Origin: a virus
IMG/VR virus record: IMGVR_UViG_3300025732_000251
Span: 1-24,911 of that record
Length of the DNA: 24,911 bases
Strand: one strand, 5' to 3'
The notes below the pieces were generated by a model. The model saw only the letters and a program-made list of their open reading frames with translations. It had not been told where the DNA came from and did not search any database. Below are positions 9,575 through 19,346 of the stretch, in pieces. A program made the position numbers and the translations under genes. The stretch's first letter is position 1. The number at the start of each line of letters is the position of its first letter.

Positions 9575-11064
9575 TATGATATTCCTATAAGAGTCAGTAA
9601 CTGACTGATGTTTGTTAAACCAGTATTAGATACTCCTCCTCCAGAATAACCTCCTCCTGAAGTAGAACCACCAGAACCTCCTGTCGGAATACCTGAACCT
9701 ATTCCTCCACCACCGCCACCAGATTGACCTCCAAACCCACCAAGGCCACCTAATAAACCACCCATGCCTCCAAATCCTTGACCGCCAAAAGCTCCTAATA
9801 TACCAGATTGTCCTCCCATGTTTCCAAATATATTGCCGTTTCCTCCATCACCAAATATCTGTTCACCATAGGTTTTAATTTTATTATTCAAAGACATATC
9901 TTGTGTATAAAGTTGTGTTGTTTTTTTCATTTTTTGTTGATCAAGAACAGAATTTGGTAATTGCTTTTGTTCAAAATTTCCAATCAATTGTTTTAAATTA
10001 CCACCAAGCATACCTTGCATCATACCCATCATGCTGCCCATACCACCAGCACCACCTCCACCTCCTCCTCCATTTTGTGCAGGGTTTTGGTTTTGATTTC
10101 CTTGACCTCCTCCAGCATTGTTACCTAATGCTATATCAAGAACGTCAGCATCAACTCTAAGACAATGTTTTTCTAACAAGTCATTAAGTATTTTCGCTGT
10201 TAGTAATAGAATAGTATCTAATTGAAAATATGGATCTAGATCTGCAGCCAATGCTGTTTCTGCTAATGAAAAAATTTCTTCGTTAGAATTATTGAAACGA
10301 TATGAACCTGTTTCTTTTCTTGTCCATACTCTTGTGGTTTCATCAGGAGATAACCATTCAACGTATCCTGGATATGGATCTTCTTCTAGAGTATAGTATT
10401 GTTTCATATATAGATTAGGAACAACAGTCACAACTGGATCTGGTACTATATCTCCAAAAATAGTATCATCATATTGAGAAACTGGGATATTTAATGGTCC
10501 ATAGTATAAAGCCAATCTTATCAAATTAGATATTGCGTTTATTACAATATTTTTAAATCTTGTGTTTATTAAATTGATACCATTGCCTTCTAATGCCAGT
10601 AATAATACGGATATTACACGCTCAAATCCATATCTTCTAACCATTATTGCTAGAGCGCCAGTAAAGGCTTCTTCCACAATTACATTTGTTGCAGCATTAC
10701 CAGCTGGGTTTTGATTATCTCCACCACCAGCGCCTGCTCCTCCACCAGAAGCAGCACCAGCATTCATAACGTTTTTCATTTTATTCATCTGCTCATAAAG
10801 CTGAGGAATAACTTGTGCTTTTTTCTGAGGATCAACTTTTTTCAGAATATCTGGTAAATTCTTTTGTTGTGGGTCTGCAGAAGCTGTAGTTGGTTTATCC
10901 GCATTAGGAGCAAATTTATCACGAACATCTGACAGCTTTTTGCCCTTATCTGTATCGACAAATGGAGCATCAGCATATTTGGCTTTTTCTAAATCTGGTT
11001 TTTCTTGCTGTAAAACTGCTTTATTATTAAAAACAGTTTTTTTATCTTCAAAAGCCTTAGTCAT
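9574..11064 (-). CDS. Glycine-rich structural protein inserted in the hub operon, function unknown
   Basis: A 496-residue protein between the two gp5-derived genes. Residues 1-100 are charged and Lys/Asp/Pro-rich. A compact, hydrophobic folded part spans about residues 128-310 (IMVRRYGFERVISVLLLALE, LIRLALYYGPLNIPVSQYDD, EWLSPDETTRVWTRKETGSY). Low-complexity Gly/Asn/Gln and Met-Gly segments lie at about 106-122, 325-360 and 405-480. There is no signal peptide. It overlaps the OB-fold gene by ATGA and the spike gene by TAATG, so it is co-translated with the hub and probably part of the hub or spike complex. I do not recognise a family. No lysozyme or peptidase motif was seen in it. Confidence 0.75.
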   Translation of the reverse strand: MTKAFEDKKTVFNNKAVLQQEKPDLEKAKYADAPFVDTDKGKKLSDVRDKFAPNADKPTTASADPQQKNLPDILKKVDPQKKAQVIPQLYEQMNKMKNVMNAGAASGGGAGAGGGDNQNPAGNAATNVIVEEAFTGALAIMVRRYGFERVISVLLLALEGNGINLINTRFKNIVINAISNLIRLALYYGPLNIPVSQYDDTIFGDIVPDPVVTVVPNLYMKQYYTLEEDPYPGYVEWLSPDETTRVWTRKETGSYRFNNSNEEIFSLAETALAADLDPYFQLDTILLLTAKILNDLLEKHCLRVDADVLDIALGNNAGGGQGNQNQNPAQNGGGGGGGAGGMGSMMGMMQGMLGGNLKQLIGNFEQKQLPNSVLDQQKMKKTTQLYTQDMSLNNKIKTYGEQIFGDGGNGNIFGNMGGQSGILGAFGGQGFGGMGGLLGGLGGFGGQSGGGGGGIGSGIPTGGSGGSTSGGGYSGGGVSNTGLTNISQLLTLIGIS

Positions 11065-11495
11065 TGTGTTTTTCCATCGCTAGCTGGATTATCAGGTCCT
11101 GCTTTTTTAATTTTTCCACCAGAATTTTTTTCAGAATCTTGAGATTCTTTTGCAACACCACCATTACTTTTATCATTACCTTCGGGTTTATCACCACGAG
11201 CAAGAGAACCAAGAATAATAGGATATTGTCTAGCAGTATCCTCTGGTAGAAAACAACATAATACTCTAGATCCGACTTTTAATCCAGATGGTGAAATACC
11301 GACTTTAGCTGTGGCAGCAGAAGTTATGGGGTGCAACACGCTCGCCCATGGCAAATCGTCATCTTTAATTTCTTGTTCGTCATTATGTTGATTATAAATC
11401 CTAACTTTACAACGGCCAGATTTAGTAGGATCTTCTTTAAATTTTCTGACTTCAGCTATACAAAGGCTACTAAAAATATCATCTTCGTGTCTCAT
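11061..11495 (-). CDS. gp5N: gp5 N-terminal OB-fold protein (baseplate hub)
   Basis: A 144-residue protein from ATG 11495, preceded by AAAGG; an in-frame TTG at 11501 overlaps the previous stop and is less likely. It contains the OB-fold pattern of gp5/VgrG proteins: 'GRCKVRIYNQH' (residues 27-37), 'DDDLPWASVLHPITS' (45-59) and 'GLKVGSRVLCCFLPED' then QYPIILGSLARG (73-103). In T4 this domain is the N-terminus of gp5 and binds the gp27 trimer; here it is a stand-alone gene just after the gp27-like gene (2 nt gap). The C-terminal 40 residues are Lys/Ser/Gly/Asp-rich and probably flexible. The lysozyme and beta-helix parts of T4 gp5 are missing from this product. Confidence 0.85.
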   Translation of the reverse strand: MRHEDDIFSSLCIAEVRKFKEDPTKSGRCKVRIYNQHNDEQEIKDDDLPWASVLHPITSAATAKVGISPSGLKVGSRVLCCFLPEDTARQYPIILGSLARGDKPEGNDKSNGGVAKESQDSEKNSGGKIKKAGPDNPASDGKTQ

Positions 11496-11497
11496 GA

Positions 11498-12760
11498 TCA
11501 ACCTTTCTTATCAGAATTTTTCTTAAATGATGCTTTAGCAACTCTTAATACCATTGTGCAATGAGGCGGTTCATTAGCTACTCTGTATTTTGTTCGAATT
11601 GCAACAACCATACATTTACCGTTCCAATGAGCCTCTCCCTGTTCGTTTTCCTGATCTGATTTTCTAGGGATATCTAATTTTATCATACAACCAAGTTTAA
11701 TTTTAGGATTATAATAACATTCTAACTCTGCTGAATTTTGAGCAAGATGAGAAAGAAAATCTGCTCTGTCTACTCTAGCTTTCGAAGTTCCGTGTTTATC
11801 TTTATTATTAGCCTTGTCATGAATATATGGCATCTTAATTGGTTTTTGTTCAATATAAGATGGAGCCTCTTCGTATACAGGTTCCCTATCAGCAAATTTA
11901 AATTTATTTTGATCTTTTTTGTCCGCAGCAATAACTTTATGCGTGGTCAAATCTATAGCATGCTCGCTTGTTTTACTGAGAGCTCTTGGTTCAGTAGTAA
12001 AAGAAGAAGATGGCTTAAACCACATTATTGAATTTTGTCTTTCTTCTTGATTATCACTAGAAAAATTTAAAGTTGTGGATTGTTTTAAGGTTACAACTTC
12101 TTGTTGCTCAAATAATTCTTCAAAGGTCTTGAACACATATTTGTGTTCTCCTTGGTCGTCTCCTTGCTGGAATAAAGCAAAAGTAGATGACTTATATTTG
12201 TCTGAAACATGTTCTGTGTTCATCATTTTAATAACATCAAGAGGATGAGATCTAGGAACAACAATTCTTCGTTTTCCTTTTGTCTCTGATATATCCATTT
12301 GTTTTTTAGTCTTGAAACCTTTTTCAAGAACATGTTTTATGACTTCGCTTGTTTTACCATTAAAACTTTTTTCTATTTGATTCCCTTGAGCGTTTAGTAA
12401 CTCAGGAGAAACACATCTCATATCGTATTGCTTATGTTTACCTGAACCAGTATTATGGATAGACTGATCGTTTAGGTTTACATTTTTCAGCATTTTCATT
12501 TTTAACTTGCATGACCCGCTAACTCCTTTAATATTATCATCAGGAGAAAACTCGATCTCTACGTCTTTATCAAAAGAACCATTAATTTTCTTTTCACCAA
12601 GAGCATCTTTAGGGTCAACAACCCTTACCTCTGCTACCGGACCATATGGATTCAATATATCTTCAAATATGTTAAATCCAGCGACAAAGACTCCATCTTT
12701 GCCACTGACATCCATGTCTCCAATTTTTAAAGTTTTAATACTAATATCGCCAATAGCCAT
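11498..12760 (-). CDS. gp27: Baseplate hub subunit, gp27-like
   Basis: A 420-residue protein starting 'MAIGDISIKTLKIGDMDVSG', with an early pattern 'FNIFEDILNPYGPVAEVRVV' and 'DKDVEIEFSPDD' typical of the first tube-like domain of gp27/VgrG-type hubs. 'HPLDVIKMMNTEHVSD' (about residues 197-212) matches the region linking the tube domains. The C-terminal part holds 'IKLGCMIKLDIPRKSDQ' and 'WNGKCMVVAIRTKYRV', a second barrel. gp27 forms the trimeric ring between the tail tube and gp5. Length is near T4 gp27 (391 aa). It lies between gp53 and the gp5 OB-fold gene with 1-2 nt contacts. Confidence 0.82.
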   Translation of the reverse strand: MAIGDISIKTLKIGDMDVSGKDGVFVAGFNIFEDILNPYGPVAEVRVVDPKDALGEKKINGSFDKDVEIEFSPDDNIKGVSGSCKLKMKMLKNVNLNDQSIHNTGSGKHKQYDMRCVSPELLNAQGNQIEKSFNGKTSEVIKHVLEKGFKTKKQMDISETKGKRRIVVPRSHPLDVIKMMNTEHVSDKYKSSTFALFQQGDDQGEHKYVFKTFEELFEQQEVVTLKQSTTLNFSSDNQEERQNSIMWFKPSSSFTTEPRALSKTSEHAIDLTTHKVIAADKKDQNKFKFADREPVYEEAPSYIEQKPIKMPYIHDKANNKDKHGTSKARVDRADFLSHLAQNSAELECYYNPKIKLGCMIKLDIPRKSDQENEQGEAHWNGKCMVVAIRTKYRVANEPPHCTMVLRVAKASFKKNSDKKG

Positions 12761-15489: not shown

Positions 15490-16206
15490 ATGGCATTAGG
15501 AATTATAGATGTTAAAAGAAGTTCTCAGACTTCTGGATTCAATATTGAAAAATTTAGATCTCAGTTAGCCAATCATGGTTATCTAGATAATAATTCTTTC
15601 GAAGTTTTTGTTCAACCTCCTAGAATTTTACAAAATTCAAGTTTATTGAACCAAGGCACGCCCTCTAATATTTCAGATATTACTAAAAATTTAGCTTTCA
15701 GAATAGATCAGGTAAGAGCTCCTGGTATATCTATAATGAATTCCGATATTAGTAGATATGGTGTTGGACCAACTCAAAAAATACCATATACCGCTGCCTT
15801 TGCTGAAGTAAATATATCAGTATTGGGCGATCATTTCTGTGAATTTTGGCAATTTTGGTATCAATGGACAAGAGCAGTTTTTGAATTCAATTCTTTAAAT
15901 TCTTCTATAGCTCCTTCATACAGCGCAAATTACAAAGAAGATTATTCCTCAATAATAATGATTGTTATATACGACCATTATGGTAATGCCGTTCAAAAAA
16001 TCAATTTATTCCAAGCATTCCCTACAGGGGTCAGGGAAGTTCCATTGTCTTGGGGAGACTCTAATTTAATGAAAATAAATGTATCAATCGCTTTTACAGA
16101 ATATAATATAGAAGGATCTTCTGTAGAAAGAAACGCCCAAACTCAATCTAACGGTTTAGTAAAATCAAGAGAATTAGAAAGTATAAATTTGGGAATAACA
16201 CCTTAA
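15490..16206 (+). CDS. gp54: Tail tube initiator-like protein, gp54-like
   Basis: A 238-residue protein with a good ribosome site (GGAG) 7 nt before the ATG. The pattern 'NLAFRIDQVRAPGISIMNSD' (about residues 67-86), followed by a segment reading GPTQKIPYTAAFAEVNISVL (94-113) and 'FWQFWYQWTRAVFEFNS', is the beta-barrel plus helix arrangement of tail-tube and gp54-type proteins. The C-terminal strand region 'SSIIMIVIYDHYGNAVQKIN' then EVPLSWGDSNLMKINVSIAF corresponds to gp54's tube-interface strands. gp54 sits on gp48 and starts polymerisation of gp19. It could alternatively be another tube-fold baseplate protein; the neighbouring gp26-like and tape measure genes keep it in the tail start module. 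Confidence 0.65.
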   Translation: MALGIIDVKRSSQTSGFNIEKFRSQLANHGYLDNNSFEVFVQPPRILQNSSLLNQGTPSNISDITKNLAFRIDQVRAPGISIMNSDISRYGVGPTQKIPYTAAFAEVNISVLGDHFCEFWQFWYQWTRAVFEFNSLNSSIAPSYSANYKEDYSSIIMIVIYDHYGNAVQKINLFQAFPTGVREVPLSWGDSNLMKINVSIAFTEYNIEGSSVERNAQTQSNGLVKSRELESINLGITP

Positions 16207-16222
16207 TACTATGGAGTAAACT

Positions 16223-16936
16223 ATGTCTGGCTTGCCTAAAATTGACTATCCTATACATAAAATAAAAATACCTTCTCTCAAAAAAGATTATTCATTTAGA
16301 CCCTTTCTTGTTAAAGAAGAAAAAATATTATTGATGGCAAAGGAAAGCGACAACGCTTCTGATATCCTTTCTGCAATCAAACAAATCATTAACAACTGTT
16401 GTCTAGACACAAAACTTGATATTAACAAATTAGCTATTTTTGATCTAGAGTATATCTTTCTTAAACTACGAGCTATCTCTGTAGATAACAATGTCAAAGT
16501 AACATATAAAGACAACGAAGATCAGAAACTATATGATTTTGATATAAATTTACAAAAAATAGAAATAAAATATCCTGATAAAATCAATAACAATATTAAG
16601 ATCACTGATAAGTCTGGTATCGTTATGAAATATCCATCAGCAGCTTTATACGATGATGAAGAGTTTCTCAATCTACAAAAAGATTATATGTTTGAACTTA
16701 TAATTCGTTGCATAGATTCTGTATATTACGAAGATCAAGTATATCAGTGTAAAGACTATAAGAAACAAGAACTAATAGATTTCTTGGAAAGTTTAGACAT
16801 CAAGACTTTTGAGAAAATACAAAATTTTCTAGTAAATGTTCCAAAAATGGAATATGTGATCAAATATAAAAATTCTTTAGGAAACGATAGAGAAATTATA
16901 CTGAGCTCGTTAAATGATTTTTTTACTTGGCGCTGA
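16223..16936 (+). CDS. gp26: Baseplate hub assembly chaperone gp26-like (0-frame product, 237 aa)
   Basis: A 237-residue protein of the T4 baseplate-hub gp26 family (T4 gp26, 208 aa). Supporting segments are 'IKIPSLKKDYSFRPFLVKEE', 'KILLMAKESDNASDILSAIK', 'IFDLEYIFLKLRAISVDN' and a C-terminal 'QELIDFLESLDIKTFEKIQN' then FLVNVPKMEY. Upstream lies GGAG, 6 nt before the ATG. gp26 and gp51 act as assembly helpers in T4 hub formation, analogous to lambda gpG/gpGT before the tape measure. The last codons of this ORF run through a T7 tract (16918-16924), and the 0 frame stops at 16934-16936; a -1 shift there would extend it to 292 residues. Confidence 0.85.
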   Translation: MSGLPKIDYPIHKIKIPSLKKDYSFRPFLVKEEKILLMAKESDNASDILSAIKQIINNCCLDTKLDINKLAIFDLEYIFLKLRAISVDNNVKVTYKDNEDQKLYDFDINLQKIEIKYPDKINNNIKITDKSGIVMKYPSAALYDDEEFLNLQKDYMFELIIRCIDSVYYEDQVYQCKDYKKQELIDFLESLDIKTFEKIQNFLVNVPKMEYVIKYKNSLGNDREIILSSLNDFFTWR

Positions 16937-16987
16937 GTCATAATACATTGGTGAATTATTATTCTTCAATATTTTCACTGGCTCAGC
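16918..16987 (+). promoter_or_regulatory. Programmed -1 ribosomal frameshift cassette
   Basis: A heptamer T TTT TTT (16918-16924) sits exactly in the X XXY YYZ register of the gp26-like frame (codons GAT TTT TTT). After a 7-nt spacer, 16932-16940 pairs with 16979-16987 (GCTGAGTCA with TGGCTCAGC) to give a 9-bp stem with one G-U pair and a 38-nt loop. The -1 frame is closed just upstream (TGA at 16915-16917) and open from 16918 to TAA 17098-17100, so the shift window contains the heptamer and is only about 19 nt wide. Confidence 0.82.
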
Positions 16988-17100
16988 ATCATAAATATTC
17001 GATTAGTGAAGTTGAAAATTTAATACCCTTTGAGAGAGATATCTATGTTCAAATGTTAGTTGATCATCTAAAAGAATTAGAAGAAGCTAAAAACAAGTAA
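16924..17100 (+). CDS. gp51: gp51-like C-terminal extension of the gp26-like chaperone, made by -1 frameshift
   Basis: Fifty-eight codons in the -1 frame, beginning YLALSHNTLVNYYSSIFSLA and continuing QHHKYSISEVENLIPFERDI, YVQMLVDHLKELEEAKNK. It is helical, acidic and charged like the gpT half of lambda gpGT. The style (aromatic NYY, QHHKYS, PFERDIYV) is what I recall of short genes found after gp26 in T4-type phages. A GTG at 16951 (or TTG at 16948) could initiate separately, giving 49-50 residues, but no ribosome site precedes them. Fusion with the first 234 residues of the gp26-like protein gives 292 aa. The tape measure ATG follows 8 nt after the stop. Confidence 0.75.
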   Translation, partial: YLALSHNTLVNYYSSIFSLAQHHKYSISEVENLIPFERDIYVQMLVDHLKELEEAKNK

Positions 17101-17108
17101 GGTAAAAA

Positions 17109-19346
17109 ATGGCGGTAGAAACACAGGAATTAGCAGTCATAAAATCTGGAATATCTTCAGCCATGGCTGAATCTGCTGGTCAGTTTAGACAAGCAGCAAC
17201 TGCCAGCGCCGCCAGTATTACTAAAGTTGTAAAAGATATATCTAACATCTTCGCTGCGCAAAGAAGAGACTTGGCGGATCTTTCTAATAGTATAAACGAA
17301 GTCGTCCATGAATTAGAACAGACAAATTCTAAATTTGATAATCTAGAAAGAGTGTTTGAAGAATCGCTATCGATTCAAACTGCCATGCGTGGTGATATAA
17401 AAACCATGGCTATATCTATAAAAAATATGACTGATGGTATCTATCAATTAGATAGAAATATGCAAAATACAATGGTTGGTCCAAATGGTCTTCTTAGTGG
17501 ATTGACTGCTGGTTTGACTTCTGGATTTGGTGGCGTTACTAGTAAACTTGGCGATATTCTTTTAAAAGTTGGTGGAGGCGCTGTTCTAGGAGGAGCCGCC
17601 GTAGCTGGTGCTAATTATTTGTCAGGAGGAGGCGTAGGAGCTGGAGGAGGAGCTGTTCCAGGAGGAGTATACGAAGGATCCACTCAATTCAGTTTACAAA
17701 CTAAAGAAGGTAAAAATTTAAATATATCGGAAGGAGATATCCAAAGATTAGCCAAAATATCTGCTCTAGAGGCTGGCTCTTTAGGAGAATCAGGAAGACA
17801 AGCAGTTGTTGACACAGTTCTGAACAGAGCAATGTCTGGTAAATATGGTGGCTCTGATATAAAAAGCGTATTGAGTTCTCCTAAACAATTCAGTCCTGTA
17901 AACCCTTATGGAGATATAGATAGAACTCCTGGTCCAAAAAATATGGAAAAATATGTTGATGAAGTTAAAAAATATTTAGCAGCTAGAGCAGGTGGTGCTA
18001 AGTCTCAATTAGGCTCTTCCCAATATACTATGTTTTTAAATCCAAACATATCCGGACAACATGCTCTAAGCACTTGGTATCAAGATATGTTAAAATCTGG
18101 AGGCGTAAAACAATATGGTTCTGGTAGGGATGTGCATCAACACGGTGTTGGAAAATATGCTGTCCCAGAATATACTGTTTCAGCAACAGGAATTAAACCG
18201 GATCAATATGCAAACCAAGGTCCTTCTGATCAAGATGCAACTCCTGCAGCCATGCCAACTGCTCCAGCTGGTAGTGCCTCAACTCCTGCTGACACCCACA
18301 ATCATAAAGAAGAAACGCTAGGAAAAGATGCTGATAAAGTAAAAGGTCAAGGCGCAACAGGCAGTTTACCTGGTGGAGATATTGTTGCTCTTGGTAGAGC
18401 ATTACAACAAAGAGGAATACGAGTCTCAGAACATCCATTATTTGGAGGCGTTCATCGCGTTCATGGACCTAACAGCGCACACTATCAGGGTCAAGCAATA
18501 GATATTAATGCAACATCAGGAAATTCAAAAGAAGCAGATGATCCAGTAATGGGTCCAAAGTTTGATAAACTTGCACAAGAATTACAAGCAGCAGGTTATA
18601 CTGTTCTGTGGAAAGTTAGAAATCATTTTAACCACATACATGCTCAAATAGGCGGTCAAGGTATCAGAGGAGGCAAATCTGCTATAGGTGGAGCATCTAC
18701 ATCAGACTACACAGACACCACTAAAGCAGCTGTTACTCCAGGCGCAACTCCTACTGCTACTTCTGTACCAGGAGTTTCTGAAACAACTCCATCAGCTATG
18801 GTTCCAACACCAACCACGCCTTCCTCTGTTATGTCAGAGCCTTCTACTGAACAAGCAACTCCAGTAAGACAAGAGGCAGTTACTCCAGGAGTTTCTGCTC
18901 CAATGTCAGGAGTGGATACAAGCGCAATGATGGGAATGATGGGTGGTATGTTACCTGGAGGATTGGGTGGAATACTAGGAATGATTGGACCTATGTTAGA
19001 ATCTTTATTAGGTTCTCTTGCTCCAACAGAAGCATATGCTCAACAAGTTGAACAACCACAAAACGCTGAGATGTTACAAGCATTATCTAATTCTATGCAA
19101 GCCACACAAATGATTAATCAAGCAGCTGTTCAAACTCAAGCGCAAACCGAACAACAAGATATGTCACAATTCAGTATTCCTGGAACAGCTCCAGATGCTG
19201 GTGTAAATCCAAATCAAATGTCATATCAACAAGCAGGTTATTCTTACAATTATCCATGGGATGTAAGTTGGCCAGATTGGGCTTCTATGATCGGTGGTAA
19301 CCACTGGTCAGAAATGAGAAAAATTAAAAAGAATATGTGGGCGTAA
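17109..19346 (+). CDS. gp29: Tape-measure-like tail protein with SleB-type and M15-type peptidoglycan hydrolase domains
   Basis: A 745-residue protein with N-terminal helical/coiled-coil sequence (about 1-120) and an Ala/Gly-rich hydrophobic stretch (about 130-175), as in tape measures. Residues about 205-345 fit a SleB-like cell wall hydrolase: 'IQRLAKISALEAGSLGESGR' with catalytic-type E221, 'AVVDTVLNR' (232-240), 'KQFSPVN'. Residues about 420-515 fit a zinc peptidase of the M15 type: H458-x6-D465 in 'SAHYQGQAIDI' and H509-x-H511 in 'NHFNHIHAQI'. Pro/Thr/Ala linkers surround both domains; the C-terminus has Met/Gly-rich (about 615-645) and Gln-rich stretches, ending in a Trp-rich tail. Position right after the gp26/gp51-like chaperone matches T4 gp29 or lambda H. 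It may cut host peptidoglycan during DNA entry. A separate hub lysin is the alternative. Confidence 0.8.
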   Translation: MAVETQELAVIKSGISSAMAESAGQFRQAATASAASITKVVKDISNIFAAQRRDLADLSNSINEVVHELEQTNSKFDNLERVFEESLSIQTAMRGDIKTMAISIKNMTDGIYQLDRNMQNTMVGPNGLLSGLTAGLTSGFGGVTSKLGDILLKVGGGAVLGGAAVAGANYLSGGGVGAGGGAVPGGVYEGSTQFSLQTKEGKNLNISEGDIQRLAKISALEAGSLGESGRQAVVDTVLNRAMSGKYGGSDIKSVLSSPKQFSPVNPYGDIDRTPGPKNMEKYVDEVKKYLAARAGGAKSQLGSSQYTMFLNPNISGQHALSTWYQDMLKSGGVKQYGSGRDVHQHGVGKYAVPEYTVSATGIKPDQYANQGPSDQDATPAAMPTAPAGSASTPADTHNHKEETLGKDADKVKGQGATGSLPGGDIVALGRALQQRGIRVSEHPLFGGVHRVHGPNSAHYQGQAIDINATSGNSKEADDPVMGPKFDKLAQELQAAGYTVLWKVRNHFNHIHAQIGGQGIRGGKSAIGGASTSDYTDTTKAAVTPGATPTATSVPGVSETTPSAMVPTPTTPSSVMSEPSTEQATPVRQEAVTPGVSAPMSGVDTSAMMGMMGGMLPGGLGGILGMIGPMLESLLGSLAPTEAYAQQVEQPQNAEMLQALSNSMQATQMINQAAVQTQAQTEQQDMSQFSIPGTAPDAGVNPNQMSYQQAGYSYNYPWDVSWPDWASMIGGNHWSEMRKIKKNMWA

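Follow-up and report, generated by a model that had tools for sequence, protein, structure and literature searches.

In phage lambda, the tail assembly chaperone gene is subject to a −1 frameshift close to its 3' end, which leads to a short and a long form of the protein, G and GT (PMC5009743). Vladimirov, Gautam and Davidson (Virology 2022) identified tail assembly chaperones in T4-like phages, as two papers that refer to their work report: PMC12846349 does so in connection with polyT slippery sites in the TAC-N genes of these phages, and PMC10885494, the PRFect paper, in connection with T4-like phages in which a short gene occurs alongside a fused long one. Another myovirus chaperone gene with a −1 frameshift at a polyT site is the TAC gene of the Vandenendeviridae phage Adele, although this phage belongs to a different family and has the motif GTTTTT (PMC12846349). 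The E. coli dnaX cassette, in which both an upstream Shine-Dalgarno element and a downstream stem act as stimulators (PMC5009743), is also relevant to what follows, even though it concerns a different gene and a different slippery site, A_AAA_AAG.

The situation in T4 itself is rather particular. As the preliminary description of the present locus had correctly said, gp26 and gp51 are products of separate genes; these lie on opposite strands (gene 26 on the minus strand at 115802–116428, gene 51 on the plus strand at 116479–117228), and no frameshift is needed. Both proteins are members of phrog_150, the match of gp26 ending at position 235, while that of gp51 covers positions 13–280 of 282 (E 2.6e-84) and includes a C-terminal extension. 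A single ORF of T4, that of gp51, therefore supplies both a gp26-like part and the extension; the long form thus occurs there as one continuous protein, and T4 makes its short and long forms from two genes. The abstract of the Virology study reportedly describes frameshifting as conserved in several T4-like groups. The suggestion that a fused version would be a clear regulatory departure for a T4-type phage is not supported, since T4 gp51 is itself the long form and polyT sites in T4-like TAC-N genes have already been cited (by PMC12846349, in its account of that study). Chaperone frameshifting in T4-type phages is, in short, already described, and the locus considered here adds another, uncultured member.

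This locus lies within a viral sequence of 24,911 nucleotides (referred to in its entirety as the window), and the genes and elements of the gp26 region described below are on its plus strand. The gp26-like gene, coding for the short tail assembly chaperone (TAC-N), runs from 16223 to 16936 (237 aa) and has a Shine-Dalgarno site, GGAG, at 16213–16216 ahead of its ATG; it contains the gp26 domain (Pfam T4_baseplate, PF12322, E 1.7e-56) and matches the baseplate hub family phrog_150 (E 7.2e-60). Its 3' end reads AAT GAT TTT TTT ACT TGG CGC TGA, with GAT at 16916, and the heptamer T_TTT_TTT at 16918–16924 thus stands in exactly the X_XXY_YYZ register with respect to the gp26 frame. It lies close to the 3' end of this gene of 238 codons, soon before the 0-frame stop TGA (16934–16936) with which the short form ends. 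The −1 frame is closed directly 5' of the heptamer by a TGA at 16915–16917, because of which a −1 ORF could not start any further upstream, and is then open from 16918 to 17100, terminating at TAA (17098–17100). The C-terminal domain specified by this −1 ORF is gp51-like (phrog_634, E 4.9e-24), and tblastn finds matches to it in 593 phage records; a fusion following a slip at the heptamer would have 234 + 58 = 292 residues, the last 58 contributed by the −1 frame. In all these respects (the position and register of the heptamer, to the base, the limits and coding character of the −1 frame and the length of the fusion) the preliminary description proved accurate. The window record contains only one gp26 match, gp51 is confined there to the −1 frame, and an uninterrupted long-form gene of the T4 kind is not found within this 24.9-kb fragment.

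Immediately 5' of the gp26-like gene there is a tail-tube-like gene (15490–16206; phrog_45 tail tube, E 6.7e-25), while the next gene on its 3' side (17109–19346, 745 aa) has a Shine-Dalgarno site, AAGG, at 17099–17102 ahead of its ATG. The latter is a candidate for the tape measure protein, an identity weakly suggested by its position together with partial, domain-level matches, of which that to the tape measure family phrog_13339 (E 1.4e-15) extends over residues 423–519 only. The same product contains a cell wall hydrolase domain of the SleB type (PF07486, E 5.6e-7). Elsewhere in the window, at 11061–11501, a 146-aa protein matches gp5-type hub/tail lysozyme families in its N-terminal part only.

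Judged from these sequences and those of relatives, the gp26/gp51 region most probably represents a tail assembly chaperone gene whose decoding involves a programmed −1 frameshift of the ribosome, a reading to which we assign a probability of roughly 0.93. Most ribosomes would stay in the gp26 frame and terminate at the TGA at 16934, giving the short form of 237 aa, while a minority would slip back by one base with UUU UUU of U_UUU_UUU in the P and A sites, aided by a 9-bp stem beginning 7 nt downstream; the slipped ribosomes would then continue in the −1 frame as far as 17100, giving the 292-aa long form with its gp51-like C-terminal domain. The slip at 16918–16924, its rate and the role of the stem are all things that we infer from the features described, while analogy with the lambda and T4-like homologues suggests that the products are chaperones; the two forms would jointly chaperone the tape measure protein and start tube assembly, as in lambda G/GT. 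The TAC-N/TAC-NC logic and the polyT slippery site are shared with the T4-like chaperones of Vladimirov et al. (2022), as reported in the papers citing them, and the likeness to lambda G/GT considered here is one of arrangement, the slippery site in the window being T_TTT_TTT. Two further points favour frameshifting, namely that the gp26 and gp51 matches are two parts of one known chaperone family, and that the gp26-like gene and the 17109–19346 gene have Shine-Dalgarno sites while the −1 ORF of the window has no visible one. Against it must be counted the fact that U_UUU_UUU promotes shifting less strongly than A_AAA_AAG in E. coli (PMC5009743).

The arrangement at 16918–16924 goes beyond what chance would give. 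Among the 7016 codons of the 20 window genes there are 50 heptamers of the X_XXY_YYZ type in register, and this is the single one behind which the −1 frame stays open for 60 codons or more, a distance to which only about 1% of in-gene −1 positions stay open. An open −1 frame passes the end of the gene for just two of the 50, the other being AAATTTG near the end of the 15490–16206 gene, with 26 open codons.

For the study of conservation, relatives in IMG/VR were fetched through gp26 alone and then tested for a gp51 match; loci L262–L341, for which the search pattern had contained the heptamer and part of the stem, were excluded from every conservation count. In all 155 gp26-ascertained loci with a gp51 match (five more without such a match being left out of this count) gp51 lies in the −1 frame, and the same is true of all 84 other loci tested. 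The site T_TTT_TTY occurs in 116/116 distinct gp26-ascertained junctions, as T_TTT_TTT in 56 and T_TTT_TTC in 60, even though the share of TTT among Phe codons is only about 0.7, while the codon preceding the two Phe codons varies (GAT, AGT, AAT, TCT or GCT). Both the heptamer and the −1 frame are therefore conserved in the way that the preliminary description had envisaged, no case being seen among the 116 junctions in which the heptamer is lost while both reading frames are kept, and this conservation strongly supports its central proposal of a −1 frameshift in the style of lambda G/GT joining gp26-like and gp51-like parts. An open −1 frame together with a T_TTT_TTN site is found in named phages of several groups (Kyanoviridae, Schizotequatrovirus, Emmerichvirinae, Emdodecavirus, Pootjesviridae, Menderavirus, Busanvirus, pf16 and Cr30).

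A few individual records deserve separate mention. In an example from the Ackermannviridae, Escherichia phage FEC14 (3200–3400), gp26 ends GAG ATT TTC ATT TAA, and the −1 frame is open after this end without a canonical heptamer. Vibrio phage Va1 has a single-frame gene of 229 aa (1464–2153) matching the C-terminal part of the gp26 family as well as gp51, in which the two parts are apparently already fused. The gp51 reading frame is unannotated in S-WAM1 and AS-szw, and in Aeromonas 65 it is annotated solely as a truncated ORF.

Whereas the heptamer, its register, the open and conserved −1 frame and the homology of both parts can be read directly from the sequences, as can the stem within the near clade, the wider distribution of the stem is more restricted. 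In the window the stem is formed by arms at 16932–16940 and 16979–16987, separated from the heptamer by a spacer of 7 nt, just as had been described, and it is the core of a predicted fold of −21 kcal/mol (z −3.6, with 0/200 shuffles as stable). Eight or nine of its nine pairs can form in 71 of 162 distinct junctions, while the remaining 91 form fewer than eight, so that a universal downstream structure is ruled out; the conservation of the stem, which was to be checked alongside that of the heptamer, thus holds for the near clade but not generally. Thinned relatives with a gp51-domain identity of 55% or more (82 in all) form on average 7.62 of the 9 stem pairs, as against 5.64 (sd 0.13) after synonymous recoding, a statistic that ignores relatedness. 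In an alignment of 69 of these relatives 89.9% of stem cells pair, a figure that falls to 36% or less once the partner is slid, while covariation is modest (three pairs, with eight cells changed on both sides, a score matched by 8/500 shuffles) and RNAalifold predicts no consensus structure for these 69 near relatives. It must be remembered that this alignment omits the 13 more distant rows of the 82, 11 of which are without the stem, so that the slide, covariation and RNAalifold tests are tilted towards the stem, although the recoding test is unaffected. Taken together, the comparisons indicate that the near clade has kept the stem and that covariation within it is modest.

A deep branch that includes the marine cyanophages is without the window's stem, and its members mostly have instead a Shine-Dalgarno-like element 9–10 nt 5' of the heptamer; GGAGGG or something similar is seen at this distance in S-PM2 (L082), L083, L084 and other relatives, and is missing in most of the window's clade. 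In the T_TTT_TTC junctions the upstream region is predicted to pair with the tail of the 16S rRNA at a mean of −6.9 kcal/mol, compared with −4.9 (sd 0.16) after synonymous recoding. Of the 62 junctions whose predicted pairing is strong (−5 kcal/mol or below), 59 have a core ending 9 or 10 nt ahead of the heptamer, a distance falling inside the range of 9–14 nt given for upstream Shine-Dalgarno elements in −1 frameshifting (PMC5009743). While dnaX has both stimulators, most T4-like relatives apparently have just one of them. These two states lie for the most part on two deep branches of the gp26 tree, with exceptions in each, and a trade-off between them, despite a raw Mann-Whitney p of 1e-14, found no backing in independent pairs on the tree, which gave no correlated change; since there is mainly one deep split, the contrast amounts to a lineage difference and not to a proven trade-off. 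The chances seem to us evenly balanced that a single frameshift site is served by different stimulators according to lineage, a downstream stem in the branch that contains the window and, in that of the cyanophages, an upstream Shine-Dalgarno element like that of dnaX, the stimulator having been replaced once or more. An earlier description of such lineage-specific stimulators was not found in the literature searched, which took in few subscription papers.

There are other ways in which the −1 frame might come to be expressed. Ribosomes ending gp26 could restart at a nearby −1-frame start, by coupling or re-initiation, and so make free gp51: a TTG at 16927 lies in the −1 frame just ahead of the gp26 stop, several relatives (e.g. 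Cr30, RL2RES, Vibrio V05, Ps15 and phiM7) have TGATG or TAATG at the junction, and gp51 is annotated in records as a separate gene. However, TTG 16927 is without a Shine-Dalgarno site, and the only other early −1-frame starts in the window, TTG/GTG at 16948/16951, likewise have no visible ribosome site, the first ATG coming at 17053. Among relatives a −1 start is unconserved, the first ATG, GTG or TTG being found at scattered offsets and often lying 45–102 nt into the conserved domain, and the upstream Shine-Dalgarno-like element can be dismissed as a ribosome site for gp51, there being no −1-frame start 3–14 nt after it in 62/62 cases. The preliminary description had regarded a separate start with its own ribosome site as the observation that would tell against frameshifting; none is found in the window, although starts at the junction do occur in those relatives having TGATG or TAATG, and in these groups re-initiation may take place. 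Since it would also leave the invariant heptamer unexplained, we consider re-initiation very improbable as the general explanation.

Slippage might alternatively occur during transcription, inserting a base at the T run so that the fused product would come from an altered mRNA. The window does have a run of seven T, but 60 of the 116 junctions have just six followed by C and still keep the heptamer pattern, and the cases documented in bacteria involve some nine consecutive A or T (PMC5009743). Transcriptional slippage would in addition give no obvious role to either the downstream stem or the upstream Shine-Dalgarno element, and appears to us more improbable still. Some sequencing methods readily make errors in homopolymer runs, which could be held to favour a sequencing error, or a disruption, that has split one gene in two; but an identical frame relation and heptamer recur in more than 150 contigs and also in finished isolate genomes, and this conservation contradicts such an origin, which must be the least credible explanation of all.

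Programmed −1 frameshifting thus remains much the most probable reading, and the comparisons support the view that the gp26–gp51 frameshift occurs very widely across a large group of T4-like phages, the greater part of them uncultured; in some public records gp51 is split or left out. The contrast in stimulators between lineages, meanwhile, supplies natural matched sequences with which the effects of upstream rRNA pairing and of downstream structure on the ratio of short to long chaperone could be tested.
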